Assembly: GCA_945860295.1 (NCBI GenBank)
Contig: CAMAQH010000003.1
Span: 1-64,000 of the forward strand
Direction of reading: 5' to 3'
DNA: 64,000 nucleotides
DNA from: Prosthecobacter debontii
Lineage (GTDB): Bacteria; Verrucomicrobiota; Verrucomicrobiia; Verrucomicrobiales; Verrucomicrobiaceae
Shown: one piece after another, positions 24,858-31,273 of the stretch
How positions within the stretch are numbered: the stretch's first letter is position 1
How the letters are laid out: each line of letters opens with the position of its first letter
Notes under the pieces: generated by a model
Told to the model about the DNA's origin: nothing
The model's database searches: none
Seen by the model: only the letters and a program-made list of their open reading frames with translations
Translations under genes and position numbers: made by a program

Positions 24858-25703
24858 TTATTGCACAAACCCGCGCGCCTTCAGCCAGAACAGAAGATCG
24901 GCGAACCACGGGTGCTGAGTGCCGATGAGGCCGGTGCCGTGATCGCCGTTCTGGTAGAGGTGGAGTTCGTGCGGAACACCGTGCTTATACAAAGCAGCGG
25001 CGTAGAGCTGAGCGTGCTCGACGGGCACCATCTTGTCTTCCATCGTGTGCCAAAGGAAGACGGGCGGGAGGCCGAGCTTCACTTGAAGTTCGCTGGAGGT
25101 CTGGCGGACAAGTGCGTCGCAGGGTTTGTCGCCGATGAGCATGTTTCGCGAGATGGCGTGCGGTTTTGTGATCATACTAATTACGGGATAACAAAGGATG
25201 ACGAGATCGGGACGCGGGCTGACCGAGCGATCACTGCCGAGGATCATGCCATCCTCTGGGCGGTTGATCAGCGTGGAAACGAGATGCCCGCCAGCGGAGA
25301 AGCCCATCACGCCAATGCGCTTCGGGTCGATCTTCCACTTCTCGGCATTGCCACGGATTTGAAACATCGCCTCGACGGCATCCTGAAGCTGCGCGGGATA
25401 ACGATAGCCCGCGCTGCCAAGTCGATAACGCAGCACGAAGACCGTGAGGCCCTGCTCATTCAGCCACAGCGCGAAGGGTTCCGCCTGACCTTCATAGATG
25501 CCGCTGTAGCTGCCACCGGGAATCATGAGCATTGCCGCGCCGCTGGCCTTCGCGGGAAGATAAGGCGTGAGAGTTGGGATGTCCTTCGCGTTCGTGCCGA
25601 GTGCTGCAGGCGTGCCATTCGGCCAGATTACGATGGGTTTCTCAAAGGCATAAAGTGAGGCCCAGGGCAGGCACAGGGCGGCAAGAATTAGTCGTGCTTT
25701 CAT
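24858..25703 (-). CDS. Secreted alpha/beta-hydrolase (acyl esterase-like)
   Basis: 281-residue hydrolase; ATG 25703 opens a signal peptide (MKARLILAALCLPWASLYAF). The region MLMIPGGSYSGIYEGQAEP is the oxyanion loop, GVMGFSAGGHLVSTL is the nucleophile elbow (GFSAG), and the acid and histidine lie in HTMEDKMVPVEHA and NGDHGTGLIGT. It resembles carbohydrate acetyl-esterases such as BD-FAE/xylan esterase types. It is upstream of the two sulfatases on the same strand (46-bp gap) and probably the first gene of that run. The upstream 370 bp holds no clear promoter. Confidence 0.86.
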   Translation of the reverse strand: MKARLILAALCLPWASLYAFEKPIVIWPNGTPAALGTNAKDIPTLTPYLPAKASGAAMLMIPGGSYSGIYEGQAEPFALWLNEQGLTVFVLRYRLGSAGYRYPAQLQDAVEAMFQIRGNAEKWKIDPKRIGVMGFSAGGHLVSTLINRPEDGMILGSDRSVSPRPDLVILCYPVISMITKPHAISRNMLIGDKPCDALVRQTSSELQVKLGLPPVFLWHTMEDKMVPVEHAQLYAAALYKHGVPHELHLYQNGDHGTGLIGTQHPWFADLLFWLKARGFVQ

Positions 25704-26074
25704 GGCTAAGCGCCTATTGGGTAACTTACTGGAATGAGCGCAACGGGTGACTGATGACATGACCATCGATTTCTGAGGAGCGTTGTTTGAACTTTTGAGC
25801 AGTGCGAACATGTGCCCAATTGGATTACAAGAGCCAAGTTCCAAGTCCTGTCAGGACGCCGATGATTAGAATGACTTTGAAGTGTTGCCGCCGCATGAGT
25901 GGTAAAGAGAAGTTTATGGAGATGAACTTCCAGAATATGCCTCAATGTTCTCTCGAACGGCCTCAGCAGTCAGCAGATTGTCTGGAGCGATTTGGCAGGT
26001 GAACTGCTGTTGGCACGTGCCAGAATAGTCATCTGTAACCCAGTTTATTCCCGGTCGTCTCAGGAAAGGCACGC
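25704..26074. other. Intergenic stretch without a confident gene
   Basis: About 370 bp between the esterase start (25703) and the transposase stop (26075). Two weak reverse-strand frames are noticeable. One is a 23-residue hydrophobic peptide (MRRQHFKVILIIGVLTGLG and on, 25825-25896). The other is a short frame ending near 25918 that contains APDNLLTAEAVRENIEAY but has no good start. The second could be the remnant of a lost gene. I see no tRNA, terminator or repeat that I could defend. Confidence 0.3.
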
Positions 26075-27211
26075 TCAATCCAACGCTCTCAAGCGCAGTC
26101 GTCTCAGCGAATACAATGGCGACTTCGACTCACTGACCTTTCGTGCTCCATCGCGACGCTTGGGGCCGAATTTATCGCGATTTTCGGTGAAGACACTCTC
26201 CACAAATTCTTTGCTCCCCAGCACCAGTCCATCGCTAAAATACCGCACGCGCAGCCGAACCATTTCAGCGCTGCTCAGCTTGCCTGTCTCTTTGAGTGCC
26301 TGCCGCGCCTCGTCTGCCGTCACGCCCTTGCGCACCACGTTTTCATTTTGAGCGTCCTTGATCTCAATGCCACTAGAAAACAGCAGGCAGCGATACGCTT
26401 CCGCACCGCCTTCCTGCTCCCAGCCGTCCACCGGCCTCGCCGTCACCTTGCTCAGCCCGCGTTGCGCTCTGCGGCTGCCGCTCACGGCTTCTGCATAGCC
26501 ACACCAGCGGTAGTCCTTCGGGTCTTCCACAAGCCCGGCACGCAAAGGATTCAGATCAATGTATGCCGACATCGTGTGCAGCGGCTCGCCCTTGCCTTCC
26601 ACCATCACACTCTTGTAGCGATCCATCCACAGCGTGCCTTTCCGTCCGCGCCGCTTGTTAAGCCACCGGCTGTAGCGCTCCTTCACCTCCTTTACGAAGA
26701 TCGACAGGTCGCAGAAGCGCTTCTTGATCACCTCCAATTTCGACAGCGCCAGATTGTCCATGCCTAGCCGCCGCAGTGCCTCGATTTCCTGCTTCAAAAG
26801 CTCCACAAATTCACGGCTGTACAGCGTGCGCAGGTGCTCGAAGAGCTTCACTTCTCCACCCACTCCGGAAAAGCGCTCCAGCCAGATTTCGCGCTTCGGC
26901 ACCTCCACGAGCGCATGGAAGTGATTGCCCATGATGCAGTAAGTCACCAGCCGCACCCCGGAGAACTCCGCCATCTTCCAGAGCAGTCGCCGCAGCGCCT
27001 CCTTCTCCACGTCATCAAAGAACAGCTCCCCTCCGCAAGTGCGCGACATGACATGGTAGGTGTAACTCTCCAGCGTCCCCTTTCCCAGAATCCGGCGACG
27101 CCCGCCAGACCACGACCGCGCGGCAGGATAGGGCGCCGTCTTGGCATTAATACCGACGAGCTGCACCTCCAATGCAATCGGTTGGTTTTCAGAGGCTTTC
27201 AAGGTGTCCAT
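26075..27211 (-). CDS. REP-associated tyrosine transposase (RAYT, IS200-like Y1 family)
   Basis: 378-residue protein with an IS200-like Y1/HUH domain of the TnpA-REP type. ESYTYHVMSRTCGGELFF is the first strand/helix region, GNHFHALVEVP holds the HFH metal motif, and ERYSRWLNKRRGRKGTLW plus SAYIDLNPLRAGLVEDP are the usual RAYT signatures. RAYTs act on single-stranded palindromic REP DNA and are normally domesticated, single-copy genes. A C-terminal region of roughly 110 residues, to RLRLRALD, is longer than in minimal members. REP-like palindromes lie just upstream of its start (27240-27313) and again at 28412-28437. Start at ATG 27211. Confidence 0.88.
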   Translation of the reverse strand: MDTLKASENQPIALEVQLVGINAKTAPYPAARSWSGGRRRILGKGTLESYTYHVMSRTCGGELFFDDVEKEALRRLLWKMAEFSGVRLVTYCIMGNHFHALVEVPKREIWLERFSGVGGEVKLFEHLRTLYSREFVELLKQEIEALRRLGMDNLALSKLEVIKKRFCDLSIFVKEVKERYSRWLNKRRGRKGTLWMDRYKSVMVEGKGEPLHTMSAYIDLNPLRAGLVEDPKDYRWCGYAEAVSGSRRAQRGLSKVTARPVDGWEQEGGAEAYRCLLFSSGIEIKDAQNENVVRKGVTADEARQALKETGKLSSAEMVRLRVRYFSDGLVLGSKEFVESVFTENRDKFGPKRRDGARKVSESKSPLYSLRRLRLRALD

Positions 27212-27239
27212 AGAGGCGAAGTATGATCAAAATGGAGCA

Positions 27240-27313
27240 CGAATCAAGCACTGAATGCCTGGCATCTTTTATGTCTCGAATCAAGCACTGAATGCCTGGC
27301 ATCTTTTATGTCT
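27240..27313. repeat. Exact 37-bp tandem repeat (2 copies) with REP-like palindrome
   Basis: Two perfect copies of a 37-bp unit (27240-27276 and 27277-27313) carry AGCACTGAATGCCTGGCAT followed by CTTTTATGT. The core ATGCC-T-GGCAT is an 11-bp palindrome (27255-27265 and 27292-27302). The pair sits 28 bp upstream of the transposase start codon, inside its probable leader, which fits RAYT/REP biology, where the protein recognises its own palindromes. A related copy occurs at 28412-28437. Confidence 0.85.
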
Positions 27314-27343
27314 TTCTTGGAATCTTTTATCTTTTATGCGCAT

Positions 27344-27380
27344 AAAAAAACACGCACAGTCCGGGAGACTGTGCGTGTTT
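27344..27380 (-). terminator. Rho-independent terminator of the outer-membrane protein gene
   Basis: A perfect 14-bp stem (27348-27361 with 27367-27380, arm AAACACGCACAGTC) encloses a 5-nt loop. On the minus strand it is followed by a run of T (plus-strand A tract 27344-27350). It lies about 40 bp after the stop of the outer-membrane protein gene at 27422. On the plus strand the following bases are only moderately AT-rich. Confidence 0.85.
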
Positions 27381-27421
27381 AAATCTAAATTGAGTTGCCC
27401 CCGTGAACCGGAAGCAATGAA

Positions 27422-28147
27422 TTAGAATTTGTAGCGGAGACCAAAATTCACACCTTGGAAGTCGTGAATTCTAGCGCTGTCTGCAAGACCAAATGAACCT
27501 GTTACGAAAAGGTCCAGTTCTGGGGTCGCTGCATACAGCAAGCGAAGGAAACCATTCCATTCACTGGTAGCAGTATCACTTGTAGTGTAGGAAGCACCAA
27601 CGTGTGTTTCAAATTTGCCAAACTGAGCACGGATGTGCGGGATAGCATAGAAACCCCAATCGCTCGCATCAGATGCGGGCGAGGCTCCCAAAGATTGCAG
27701 TGAAGAAAAAAGGACTGCATAATTTGCACCCAATTCGGTGACAAAATGAATGTTCTTCGTCAGTGGGATGAATCCACCAATGCCAGTATTGACTGCCCAA
27801 TAATCTCCCACCTCGAAATCAAGAGGGACGGGCAAAATCCCATCAGGGATTTTGGCTGTAACTTCACTGCGTGAGACGCCGAGAGCAAAATAGAGATTAT
27901 CGGCAGGAGAATATTCAAGAGCTAGCGCAAAGCCTTCAAGATCTAATTCAAGATTGTTGATTGGGAGTTGTGTGGGAACTAATTTACCAGAAGCGTATTG
28001 CTTGGAGAGCGAAATGTTCGAGTAGGAGATGGTTGATTCTGGCTCGATGGTTGGGGCGATAACGCCTTTGGCGGGAGCAGAAGTGCCAGCTTGCGCAGTC
28101 GTTGTGACGACAGCCAGAGCCAGGAGGGCAAGTGTCTTTGTGATCAT
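27422..28147 (-). CDS. Outer-membrane beta-barrel protein, unknown function
   Basis: 241-residue protein with signal peptide MITKTLALLALAVVTTTAQA from ATG 28147. The rest alternates hydrophobic and polar residues as in porin-like barrels (for example NLYFALGVSRSEVTAKI, NIHFVTELGANYAVLF, KFETHVGASYTTSD), and it ends in the outer-membrane C-terminal signature GLRYKF. It resembles small OmpW/OmpA-barrel-like proteins, but I cannot place it in a named family. Base composition is visibly AT-richer than the neighbours, and the gene carries its own promoter and strong terminator. It lies between two sets of REP-like repeats next to a transposase, so horizontal acquisition is plausible. Confidence 0.78.
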   Translation of the reverse strand: MITKTLALLALAVVTTTAQAGTSAPAKGVIAPTIEPESTISYSNISLSKQYASGKLVPTQLPINNLELDLEGFALALEYSPADNLYFALGVSRSEVTAKIPDGILPVPLDFEVGDYWAVNTGIGGFIPLTKNIHFVTELGANYAVLFSSLQSLGASPASDASDWGFYAIPHIRAQFGKFETHVGASYTTSDTATSEWNGFLRLLYAATPELDLFVTGSFGLADSARIHDFQGVNFGLRYKF

Positions 28148-28226
28148 GGTTGTGCTTTGTCTTTGTTTTTTATATGTTGTTTTAATATCCATTAGCACGC
28201 CTAAGTATGTATAGGATATATTTCAA

Positions 28227-28255
28227 ATACTAAAAGCATCACCAACTTCTGTCAA
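28227..28255 (-). promoter_or_regulatory. Predicted sigma-70-type promoter for the outer-membrane protein gene
   Basis: On the minus strand TTGACA (28250-28255) is followed after exactly 17 bp by TAGTAT (28227-28232), about 80 nt upstream of ATG 28147. The -35 is a perfect consensus and the -10 matches four of six positions. Such a clear housekeeping promoter is unusual in this window and fits the foreign look of the gene. Confidence 0.55.
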
Positions 28256-28411
28256 TTGCTCAGTTGATGTGACTGCTAGAAAATTGCTTCCTGGAGGGCG
28301 CGGATTCGAGTTGAGCACAAACGTGGGGCGGAGACTGGGTGTGGGTGGGGGCGGAGAGGCGGCCTTTGGGCAGATCATGGCGGGTGCGGCAAGGGTCGCG
28401 CAATACGTTAG

Positions 28412-28437
28412 AGCACTAAATGCCTGGCATTTTTTAT
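28412..28437. repeat. REP-like palindromic element, third copy
   Basis: This copy reads AGCACTAAATGCCTGGCAT and then TTTTTAT. The palindrome ATGCC-T-GGCAT (28420-28430) is identical to that in the tandem repeat at 27240-27313, and the preceding AGCACT-A/G-A and the trailing T-rich stretch are also shared. A partial second echo (TGGCATTTTTTATGTTT) follows immediately. It lies on the far side of the outer-membrane protein gene in the same orientation, so the gene is flanked by direct repeats. Confidence 0.7.
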
Positions 28438-28509
28438 TGGCATTTTTTATGTTTCGAGAGAGCTGACAGCAACCCTGATCAACTGCCGAGGGATTAAAGA
28501 CAACGGCCT

Positions 28510-28722
28510 TCATGCCTGCTTCCGCCGCAATTCCGAGACCGGCACACGTCGTCCGGGATGCTGAAGGGCTTCATCGAGCAGGAATTCAAGTGCCTGGCTG
28601 GCGCGATGCCCAAACACCGTCTGAATCGCGGCTTCCACGGCGAAATCCATCGAGCTAAACTGACCGCTAGCGACTTGTCCGCGCAGCAGTGCTTCGGCGG
28701 GTGTGGTGAGGGTGGCCGTTAT
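28510..28722 (-). pseudogene. Possible ParD-like antitoxin remnant without a start codon
   Basis: A 70-codon reverse-strand frame, preceded directly by TAG and beginning ATA-ACG-GCC, ends at TGA (28510-28512). It reads LTTPAEALLRGQVASGQFSS, then VEAAIQTVFGHRASQALEFL, then PGRRVPVSELRRKQA. The VASGxFxS...VEAAI pattern is that of short ParD/CC2985-type antitoxins. A changed start (ATG to ATA) is the simplest reading; the first in-frame ATG would give only 46 residues. No toxin gene follows: the region past 28510 leads into the REP-like element. The family assignment is tentative. Confidence 0.42.
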
Positions 28723-28765
28723 CTAGAGAATTCTAGGCTTTGCGGTTCAAGAGGCAATCAAAGTC

Positions 28766-31273
28766 TCAGCCAAACAAACTCATCTGCCCCGCGTCTGCAT
28801 CGCTGACGGCTTTCTTCCTTGTCTTCGCGGGCACGCTGGTGGCGACGGGGACTTCTTTGACGCTCTCGGCGGGCTGGTGGCCGGCCTCGAGTTGTTGGAG
28901 GACTTCTTTGGCGCGGGCGATGACGTTTTCGGGGAGGCCGGCGAGGCGCGCAACCTGGATACCGTAGCTTTTTTCGGCGCAGCCGGGGAGGATCTTGCGG
29001 AGGAAGATTATCTGCTGGTTCCACTCCTTCACGGCGACGTTGTAATTCTTCACGGCGCTGCGGCTTTGCGCGAGGGCGGTGATCTCGTGGTAGTGGGTGG
29101 CGAAAAGGCAACGGGCACCGATGTGGTCGTGCAGGTGCTCGGCGACGCTCCAGGCGATGCTGAGGCCGTCGAAGGTGCTCGTGCCGCGGCCGATCTCGTC
29201 GAGGATGACCAATGAGCGCTCGGTGGCGTTGTTGAGGATGAGCGCGGTCTCGTTCATCTCGACCATGAAGGTGGACTGGCCACGCGCGATGTCGTCGCTG
29301 GCGCCGATGCGGGTGAAGATGCGATCCACCAGCCCGATCTCCGCACTGGCGGCGGGCAGGAAGCTGCCAATCTGCGCCATGAGCGTGAGCAGCGCGGTTT
29401 GGCGCAAATACGTGCTCTTACCGGCCATGTTCGGACCGGTGATGAGGATGAGGCGACTTTCTTCCGGCTCCAAGGTGACGTCGTTTGGCACGAAGCGCTC
29501 GCCGCTGGTGAGGTTCTGATCGAGCACGGGATGGCGGCCGTCGCGAATGAAGAGATTCCGCGTCTCGTTAAGCACGGGGCGGGTATAATTAAAGAGCCGC
29601 GCGGTCTCGGCGAGCGAGCCGAGGGAATCGAGGGTGGCAATGGCTTCGGCGGTTTCCTGGATGTGGCCCAGGTGCTCTAAAACGCGGCCGCGCAGCTCGA
29701 TGAACTGCTCGTATTCGAGCGCCTTGCTGCGCTCCTCGCTGCCGAGGATCTTGTCCTCCATGCGCTTCAACTCGTCAGTGATGTAGCGCTCGCCGTTGAC
29801 GGTGGTCTGCTTGCGATGGTAGTCGGCGGGCACGCTGCCGACGTTGGCCTTGGTGATCTCGATGAAGTAACCGAAGACGGCGTTGTATTTGATCTTGAGG
29901 CTCTTGATGCCGGTGCGCTCGATCTCGCGGTTCTGCAGGTCGGCGATCCACTGGCGGCCGAGCGTGGAGGCGGCGCGGAGTTCATCGAGCGCGGGGAGAT
30001 GGCCCTCGCGGAAGACGCCGCCTTCTTTGATCTGCATGGGCGGCTCATCGCAGATGGCGCGTTGGATTTCCTGACAGAGCGGGGTGAGGTCGTGGAGGCG
30101 TGTTGTCAGGTGGTCTGACATGGCTGACCGCATTGACCATTCTGACAGGAGTGTTTTTAGCGTGGGCACGACCTCAAGCGAAACGGCTAGAGCCTGCAAA
30201 TCGCGGCCGTTTCCGCTACCTTGGCTAAGGCGGGAGCTGGTGCGCTCCAGGTCACGCACTTCTTTGAGCAGTGTGCGGATCTGGCTGAGGAGCATCGGCT
30301 CATCCATCAGCGCAGCGATTATATTTTGGCGTTGCGTGAGCAATTCAAGATCACGCAGCGGGTGCAGCACCCAGTGGCGCATCTTACGCGCGCCCATCGG
30401 CGTGCAGGTGCGGTCGAGGGCACTCAAAAGCGTGTGCGCATTGCCGCCACGGGCGCTGACGAGCTCCAGATGGCTCTGACTGGCGGCGTCGATCAAAACA
30501 CAATCGTTGGTTTGGCCGACACGCAGGCGCTGGATGTGATCGACACTACGGCGGAGCTGGAATTGCAGGTATTGCAGGACACAACCGGCGGCGCTGATGG
30601 CGGCGTTCATGCCGGTGCAGCCGAAACCATCCAGCGATTGCACTTTGAAATGCTGGGTGAGGCTGTGCTGGGCCTGATCGAGCAGGAAGAGGTAGCTCTC
30701 GGTGGATTGAGCGCAGGCAGGGTTGCCGAGGGCCTCGATTACGTCGCGCTGGTCGTCGCTGAAGAGTAGTTCACTGGCTTGGAGGCGCTCCAGTTCGTCG
30801 GCGAGTTCTGTGGTGTCCTTGAACTCAGCGACCTCGAATTCACCAGTGGTGTGATCGACATAGGCAAGCCCAAGTTTCTTGCCCGAACGATAAACGGCAG
30901 CGAGGTAGTTCGGGCGATTGGAGTCGAGCAGATTGAGGTCGCTGATGGTGCCCGCGCTAAGGATCTGAGAGATGGCGCGCTCGACGATTTTCCCTGGTGT
31001 CGGCTCGGTCGTCTGCTCGGCGATGGCGACGCGTTTGCCGCCTTTGATCAGTTTCGCGATGTAACCCTGCGACGAATGGTGCGGCACTCCACACATGGGC
31101 ACGCCGTTGCGTTTGGTGAGGGCAACGTTGAGGATGGGGGCGGCGGTTTTGGCGTCCTCAAAAAAGAGTTCGTAGAAGTCACCGAGGCGGAAGAAGAGCA
31201 GCACGTCCTCAGGAAGCTCACGCCGGATGGCGAGGTATTGCTTCATCATGGGAGTGGTGGCGGCGTCGGACAT
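28766..31273 (-). CDS. mutS: DNA mismatch repair protein MutS
   Basis: 835-residue mismatch-recognition ATPase. ATG 31273 is preferred (MSDAATTPMMKQYLAIR); the frame continues upstream without MutS character. The mismatch-binding F-x-E motif is GDFYELFF (Phe33-Glu35). Connector and lever domains follow. The ATPase has Walker A GPNMAGKSTYLRQ near 612-624, LVILDEIGRGTSTFDGLS and the CLFATHYHEI segment. The C-terminus is short and ends DAGQMSLFG, a beta-clamp-binding-like QMSLF peptide often found in MutS. MutL is not in the window. Length fits the family (about 850). Confidence 0.97.
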   Translation of the reverse strand: MSDAATTPMMKQYLAIRRELPEDVLLFFRLGDFYELFFEDAKTAAPILNVALTKRNGVPMCGVPHHSSQGYIAKLIKGGKRVAIAEQTTEPTPGKIVERAISQILSAGTISDLNLLDSNRPNYLAAVYRSGKKLGLAYVDHTTGEFEVAEFKDTTELADELERLQASELLFSDDQRDVIEALGNPACAQSTESYLFLLDQAQHSLTQHFKVQSLDGFGCTGMNAAISAAGCVLQYLQFQLRRSVDHIQRLRVGQTNDCVLIDAASQSHLELVSARGGNAHTLLSALDRTCTPMGARKMRHWVLHPLRDLELLTQRQNIIAALMDEPMLLSQIRTLLKEVRDLERTSSRLSQGSGNGRDLQALAVSLEVVPTLKTLLSEWSMRSAMSDHLTTRLHDLTPLCQEIQRAICDEPPMQIKEGGVFREGHLPALDELRAASTLGRQWIADLQNREIERTGIKSLKIKYNAVFGYFIEITKANVGSVPADYHRKQTTVNGERYITDELKRMEDKILGSEERSKALEYEQFIELRGRVLEHLGHIQETAEAIATLDSLGSLAETARLFNYTRPVLNETRNLFIRDGRHPVLDQNLTSGERFVPNDVTLEPEESRLILITGPNMAGKSTYLRQTALLTLMAQIGSFLPAASAEIGLVDRIFTRIGASDDIARGQSTFMVEMNETALILNNATERSLVILDEIGRGTSTFDGLSIAWSVAEHLHDHIGARCLFATHYHEITALAQSRSAVKNYNVAVKEWNQQIIFLRKILPGCAEKSYGIQVARLAGLPENVIARAKEVLQQLEAGHQPAESVKEVPVATSVPAKTRKKAVSDADAGQMSLFG

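Follow-up and report, generated by a model that had tools for sequence, protein, structure and literature searches.

A RAYT transposase gene of Prosthecobacter debontii is probably the sole gene of a small mobile element with a palindromic left end

Results

Genes and repeats of the locus

The window, that is, the whole stretch of 64,000 nucleotides of Prosthecobacter debontii DNA that was analysed, contains a RAYT/TnpAREP-type HUH transposase gene on its minus strand (26075-27211). RAYTs are described as domesticated bacterial transposases. The gene had been placed correctly in an earlier note on this DNA; its frame is open over 378 aa, and the Pfam domain Y1_Tnp was found in the product at 46.7 bits. 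The motifs H97-F-H99 and Y217-I-D-L-N-P were kept at an HUH-to-Tyr distance of 120 aa, which gives the HUH motif and the single catalytic Tyr followed by NP of the RAYT/TnpAREP group. Among 20 aligned RAYT proteins, H97, F98, H99, Y217 and N221 were invariant and P222 nearly so. The AlphaFold model showed the TnpAREP fold, with 4er8 as the best PDB match (E 1.3e-4) and ISDra2 and IS608 ranking after it. The protein scored 58.9 bits against NCBIfam NF047646, under the cut-off of 80. One RAYT copy of this type was present in the window genome among the matches listed. Two more Y1_Tnp genes of this genome (G000:C12:63515-63856 and C44:4-261) are a 156-aa IS200-type frame and a RAYT-like frame at a contig edge.

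The leader of the RAYT gene carries two identical tandem 37-bp units (27240-27276 and 27277-27313). A third copy (68%) was found at 28405-28441, with its core at 28412-28441, on the far side of the neighbouring gene. All three have one orientation, and this part of the earlier description was confirmed. The 19-nt core AATGCCTGGCATNTTTTAT occurred three times in the window with 0 mismatches. Because shuffled sequences gave an expectation of 0.02 cores even at ≤3 mismatches, and 0/100 shuffles reached three, this number is not due to chance. As argued below, each unit holds a putative left end, all on the minus strand. The proximal one, ATGCC followed directly by AGGCATTCAGTGCTTG, lies at 27245-27265, and its first base beyond ATGCC, 27260, has a spacing of 49 nt to the start codon. 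The second, at 27282-27302, is the tandem copy produced by the repeated 37-bp unit. The third, at 28410-28441, has its A-rich ATGCC flank doubled and no RAYT after it. It was also considered as the front of a still-readable decayed RAYT and rejected; no significant RAYT similarity was detected in 28148-28770 (best E 0.63), indicating that the body is gone or was never present.

Between the second and third left ends lies a minus-strand gene of 241 aa (27422-28147). Its AlphaFold model has an N-terminal helix and 10 strands (mean pLDDT 82.7), and the best PDB matches were outer-membrane barrels in general. The product is thus predicted to be an outer-membrane beta-barrel with a signal-like helix, and no match was found in Pfam, PHROGs or NCBIfam. 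The gene is AT-richer than its surroundings, as had been noted: its GC was 0.478 and its GC3 0.43, versus 0.581 for the GC of the window and 0.72 for the GC3 of the RAYT gene. However, the orthologues in two relatives (G003 and G007) were also low (GC 0.499), so the composition is not a sign of recent import, and a recent foreign origin was not supported. The proposal that the gene has its own promoter and terminator was borne out in part. A promoter-like TTGACA-17-TAGTAT (28255-28227) matched the consensus at 10/12 positions. A terminator with a 15-pair stem (27348-27380, minus strand) is common to the G003 orthologue, and the similarity with G003, which covers the gene and terminator only (27345-28150), ends beside it. 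Both signals are consensus matches, and the scan of the window gave 3 of each versus 1.7 promoters and 2.8 terminators in shuffles, neither far above the shuffles.

The barrel gene in relatives

The earlier note took the barrel gene for cargo and suggested joint movement with the repeats and the transposase. The gene was sought in relatives, as that note had proposed. Matches were present in 17 of 48 genomes overall, a count that includes the window genome and a weak match in G043, and 17 other strong loci were found in 15 genus genomes. No left end (≤3 mismatches) and no RAYT was detected within up to 1.5 kb of any of these 17 loci, nor in the larger stretches around 13 of them. In six relatives (G003, G005, G023, G044, G049, G050) the gene lies 78-98 bp from, and convergent with, a gene which we take from its protein to be creatininase-like. 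At one of these places (L237, G049:C30) two tandem barrel-gene copies were seen. In several other relatives, e.g., G007 and G018, the barrel gene lies elsewhere, again without the element. Conversely, the G010 assembly has a left end and a RAYT but yielded no barrel gene. As a general cargo gene of the element, the barrel gene was therefore rejected.

A composite cassette, in which everything from left end 3 through the barrel gene and left ends 2 and 1 to the RAYT moved jointly, with the transposase using left end 3 and the RAYT right end, was also weighed. The third left end, beyond the barrel gene and in the same orientation, fits such an event. So does the creatininase-like gene of the window genome, which lies on contig C38 without a barrel gene, indicating that the latter either changed place in this genome or was lost at that locus while another copy was kept. 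The same observation keeps a one-off joint relocation in this genome alone in consideration, although we regard it as unlikely. Against the cassette stand the 17 loci without such an arrangement, the G010 element without a barrel gene and the places of the barrel gene that have no element. Since relatives carry the gene at other places without a left end, a mobile element is not needed to explain where it lies. The cassette is thus an improbable account of the locus. What survives of the suggested joint movement is the pair of repeat and RAYT, which look like one mobile unit of which the barrel gene is probably not a part.

A fixed putative left end upstream of related RAYT genes

The upstream regions of RAYT copies in the genus were compared. 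Among the matches listed, 41 of the 44 same-genus matches (≥67% identity, >1 kb) were fetched; a 45th match, from G003, had 38% identity and was treated separately. Of the fetched copies, L092 came without upstream sequence and was left out of the left-end count. The remaining 40 and the window copy, all with enough upstream sequence, gave 41 copies. The motif, an A-rich stretch and ATGCC followed by AGGCATTTAGTNNTTG, was present upstream of 38 of the 41, scored as ATGCCAGGCA at ≤1 mismatch 20-90 nt before the start. In control windows further upstream it was found in 3/149. The core of the 37-bp unit thus recurs in front of related RAYT genes, as the earlier note had asked to be checked. Counted from the base that follows GCC, the start codon lay 47-49 nt away in 36 of 39 measured copies and 56-57 nt away in three. 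Column information was 1.65-2 bits over TGCC-AGGCA (hyphens mark the edge of the left end) and ≤0.32 bits from -12 outward, so that similarity among the copies stops about 12 nt outside the motif. TGCC stood to the left of nearly all 38 aligned copies. Three G023 copies (L057, L061, L063) did not have the motif at one mismatch; similar sequences were visible by eye. One copy (L241, G010:C57) shows a nested insertion, in which a further left-end sequence interrupts the RAYT after about 25 codons.

A longer pattern was then matched to whole genomes. At ≤2 mismatches it gave 59 matches in 22 genomes, 0 to 15 each. At least 35 of the 59 preceded a listed RAYT match by no more than 260 nt, and 24, many of them weak, had no RAYT behind them among the matches listed. 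At ≤1 mismatch, at least 22 of 25 were in front of a RAYT within the same distance. For a hold-out test, the GTDB species collection, with one genome for each of 84,980 species, was searched for exact copies of the 21-nt motif. The motif occurred in 35 stretches, all of Verrucomicrobiota (labelled Verrucomicrobia, Verrucomicrobiaceae or Prosthecobacter, the last being a genus of Verrucomicrobiaceae). In the genomes other than six recognised as already used, a RAYT followed 17/17 exact motifs that had >200 nt of room. The spacing was 47-49 nt in 16 of the 17; the remaining motif, which lies 128 nt from the start, is the one further upstream in a tandem pair. Two further hold-out matches, outside the 17, had 72 nt of room (no RAYT seen) and 164 nt (RAYT seen). 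The six used genomes contained two exact motifs without a RAYT behind, one near a contig end and one before a broken RAYT. Because the copies share the palindrome at fixed spacing, and because every one of the 17 hold-out motifs led into a RAYT, it is best read as the left end of the RAYT element. The left end itself folds to a 3-bp stem only.

Copy number, right end and signs of movement

RAYT protein matches were found in at least 31 of 37 genomes, the window's own included. Among the matches listed and with fragments included, the highest counts given for the genus were 15 (G012), 14 (G023) and 13 (G001); in other families of the order, the matches listed numbered 16 (G027), 20 (G036), 29 (G030) and 40 (G034). 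Only four pairs of copies were ≥90% identical. In G018, three copies with 93-96% identity occupy unrelated places; their alignment runs from ATGCC-AGGCA to GGGTGATGC, beyond which they diverge. Two copies in G015 share 97.3% identity, yet their last codons differ. In most other pairs the similarity stops within about 10 bases of the stop codon; the exceptions were orthologous insertions and subfamilies with 20-60 nt tails. In the window, the right end is therefore probably at or just past the stop codon (26071-26080, minus strand), where inter-copy similarity ends. No conserved hairpin or consensus fold was detected near the stop codon of the copies, and subterminal hairpins at both ends, as in IS200/IS605, were not found.

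Filled and empty sites were compared, a check which the earlier note had suggested and which succeeded in part. At a locus that we take, from our reading of its gene, to be deformylase-like, G011 has a RAYT and G001 has none, with both flanks in place, and G042 has kept a right-end remnant. A second, partial RAYT-free syntenic alignment was obtained between G001 and G020, so that the search yielded one clear and one partial case. Neither the deformylase-like locus, nor the right flank of L065, nor the comparison of all flanks gave a readable junction for an exact empty site; outside G018 itself, the L065 flank had only short matches. Because the flanks have diverged and base-exact junctions are missing, loss of the RAYT at the RAYT-free alleles is possible. 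Moreover, between two shared segments the RAYT lies in opposite orientations in G011 and G020, which could be a local inversion. G002 had only the right segment in common, with the orientation of G020. Many of the compared genomes are fragmented assemblies. Since the window genome has one such copy, movement of the window copy is inferred from relatives.

The mutS loci of 12 relatives, several of them cut by contig ends, were also compared with the window (24858-28765). Downstream of mutS they shared with it only a small gene fragment (28618-28722, minus strand), presumably ParD-like as judged by eye, which also adjoins related RAYTs in G010 and G014. G010 is the exception, since the RAYT and left end are also in common: there, about 2 kb from mutS, a left end immediately precedes a RAYT of 86% identity. 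In G008 (L115, position 3017) a solo left-end-like sequence without a RAYT was seen about 5 kb downstream of mutS. It adjoins a gene, presumably oxidoreductase-like, that follows a RAYT in G014.

The repeats had been called REP-like, and this did not hold. The whole genome (4.68 Mb, 75 contigs) has four cores at ≤2 mismatches, three in the window and one on contig C4; the longer pattern also gave four, three in the window and a weak one on contig C41. The 37-bp unit has no GT[AG]G foot, and palindromes with that foot flanking the gene at high copy, as in a canonical REPtron, were not found. A dispersed REP family is thus ruled out. A classical REPtron, i.e., a domesticated, vertically kept RAYT with cognate REPs, would agree with the RAYT fold and motifs, with the one copy in the window genome among the matches listed and with the position of the G010 copy, likewise near mutS. 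However, relatives are multi-copy at unrelated places, the few cores have no foot, and most motifs that are exact or have one mismatch precede a RAYT gene, which makes this explanation slightly less probable again than the cassette. Weakest is the view that the palindrome serves only in the leader, as a regulator or start-site element, and that the copies were spread by gene duplication or other mobile DNA: the fixed spacing to the start codon fits it too, but the similarity breaks off sharply at the motif and again near the stop codon, no common longer unit was seen, and three genera show iteration of the left end.

Putative left ends in other genera and a MITE family

Distant RAYT copies have other short palindromes at about the same upstream distance. 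These were GGGGACAGACCCC in three G029 copies, AAAACCAGGTTTT and GAACCTGGTTC upstream of single G034 copies, and GATGCCAGACA in G030; in many distant upstream regions, no palindrome was visible by eye. The forty RAYT matches of G034 (among those listed) lie in a 2.8-Mb assembly, and many inspected copies there differ in their left-end palindrome. The pairing of the two 4-nt halves was measured around the C-W-G centre nearest 48 nt, which was chosen blind to pairing. Of 88 upstream regions 75 qualified; the other 13 had no such centre 36-62 nt before the start and were dropped. Starts of the distant copies are in-frame ATGs picked by script, some of which may be wrong. The halves matched better within a copy than when exchanged among copies: 2.0 versus 1.32 pairs in 34 distant copies (0/5000 shuffles as high), 2.0 versus 1.44 in G034 alone (18 copies; 20/5000) and 3.59 versus 3.46 in the genus (41 copies; 17/5000). 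Because the copies are related, these statistics do not count independent events. Tandem left ends were seen in 10/88 upstream regions versus 5/235 control positions, in five genomes of three genera (G000, G010, G018, G030, G034); the window, with its 37-bp tandem, supplies one example.

A MITE family, E2, was also noticed (loci L308-L327). Its members are about 170-390 bp long with inverted GGCATGAATGGCACTCAGTTAA ends, and the outer flank is often ATGCC. E2 ends numbered 58 in G011, 37 in G002, 29 each in G001 and G012 and 10 in G009, and none or one in each of the ten remaining genus genomes that were searched; weak matches occurred in G028 (3) and G030 (1). The family is present in five of the six genus genomes of this set with at least five RAYT matches; G010 is without it. 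E2 ends lie directly beside or a few hundred bases from RAYT copies at L062, L068, L069, L077 and L079, and two of the three similar G018 copies have MITE copies at other points of their flanks. E2 was considered as the left end of another RAYT and rejected, as L304 shows a MITE near a RAYT and not its end. E2 MITEs are possibly a REPIN-like partner of this RAYT.

Discussion

We consider it probable, at roughly three in four, that the RAYT is the sole gene of an HUH (IS200/IS605-like) mobile element of about 1.2 kb, with a palindromic left end and a right end near the stop codon, and that the barrel gene is separate. The left end and its spacing are fixed, the sequence beyond both ends is unrelated, and many copies lie at unrelated places. 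Moreover, copies are up to 97.3% identical, one syntenic place is free of the RAYT, and the gene stands in opposite orientations between shared segments. The most fitting description of the element is that of a RAYT which has kept the behaviour of an insertion sequence. Its left end would be ATGCC-AGGCAT, about 48 nt upstream of the start codon; the transposase would cut one DNA strand just 3' of ATGCC, and the element would be inserted adjacent to a target that reads ATGCC and is A-rich. Tandem left ends may be by-products of repeated cutting or of insertion beside an existing left end. The barrel gene would have ended up between left ends, of which the third may be the remnant of an element whose body was lost.

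The covarying left-end halves in other genera are a hint, at the level of sequence, of a guide-like target rule. In a more tentative extension, which we think possible but doubtful, the RAYTs would form an autonomously mobile clade with target choice laid down in the left end. The target half would pair with the first bases of the element, and lineages would have switched both halves together (ATGCC/GGCAT, GGGG/CCCC, AAAC/GTTT and GAAC/GTTC being the pairs put forward). Tandem left ends and a cognate MITE family with inverted ends would then be by-products.

Reading the RAYT as mobile runs against the published view. In the excerpted text of Corneloup et al. (2021), tnpAREP genes are mostly single copy with no evidence of mobility (PMC8266576), and an excerpt of PMC8049555 likewise calls RAYTs single-copy and vertically inherited. 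Among the best matches of a literature search, mostly non-subscription papers, no paper on mobile Verrucomicrobia RAYTs or on the left-end motif was found. A multi-copy RAYT lineage whose left end is defined would be the mobile form lacking so far, and it would show what long RAYTs may recognise. It would also give a system for testing the step from jumping gene to domesticated REP-maker.

The element was compared with three known systems. RAYT-like genes with other terminal repeats, and GTAG repeats enriched in one Verrucomicrobia member, appear in the excerpted text of PMC3733652. As far as that excerpt goes, the TIRYTs of TIRtrons resemble the present case in having a RAYT-like gene with repeats unrelated to GTAG REPs; terminal inverted repeats flank their gene, whereas here the short palindrome was found on the left only. 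With IS200/IS605 (IS608, ISDra2) the element shares the HUH fold, probable mobility, a fixed short sequence to its left and possible pairing of the cut site with an element-borne sequence. Its left end is sharp, its right end is defined only to about 10 bases in most pairs, and it occupies unrelated sites in relatives. Unlike these elements, it has a transposase of about 378 aa, no right-end hairpin that we found and room for the RAYT gene only. TnpAREP class 2, subclass 2.3 (PMC6006769), is alike in having HUH and Y---NP, a long protein, several copies per genome and no canonical REPs. Its median HUH-to-Tyr distance is 110 aa versus 120 aa here, and the present RAYT is multi-copy in the genus, with one copy in the window genome among the matches listed. 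Compared by features and not by a tree, the motifs are NHYH and YVDLNP in subclass 2.3 versus NHFH and YIDLNP here. Subclass 2.3 belongs to Chromatiales and Alteromonadales, whereas the present RAYTs belong to Verrucomicrobiota and, unlike that subclass, have proposed element ends.
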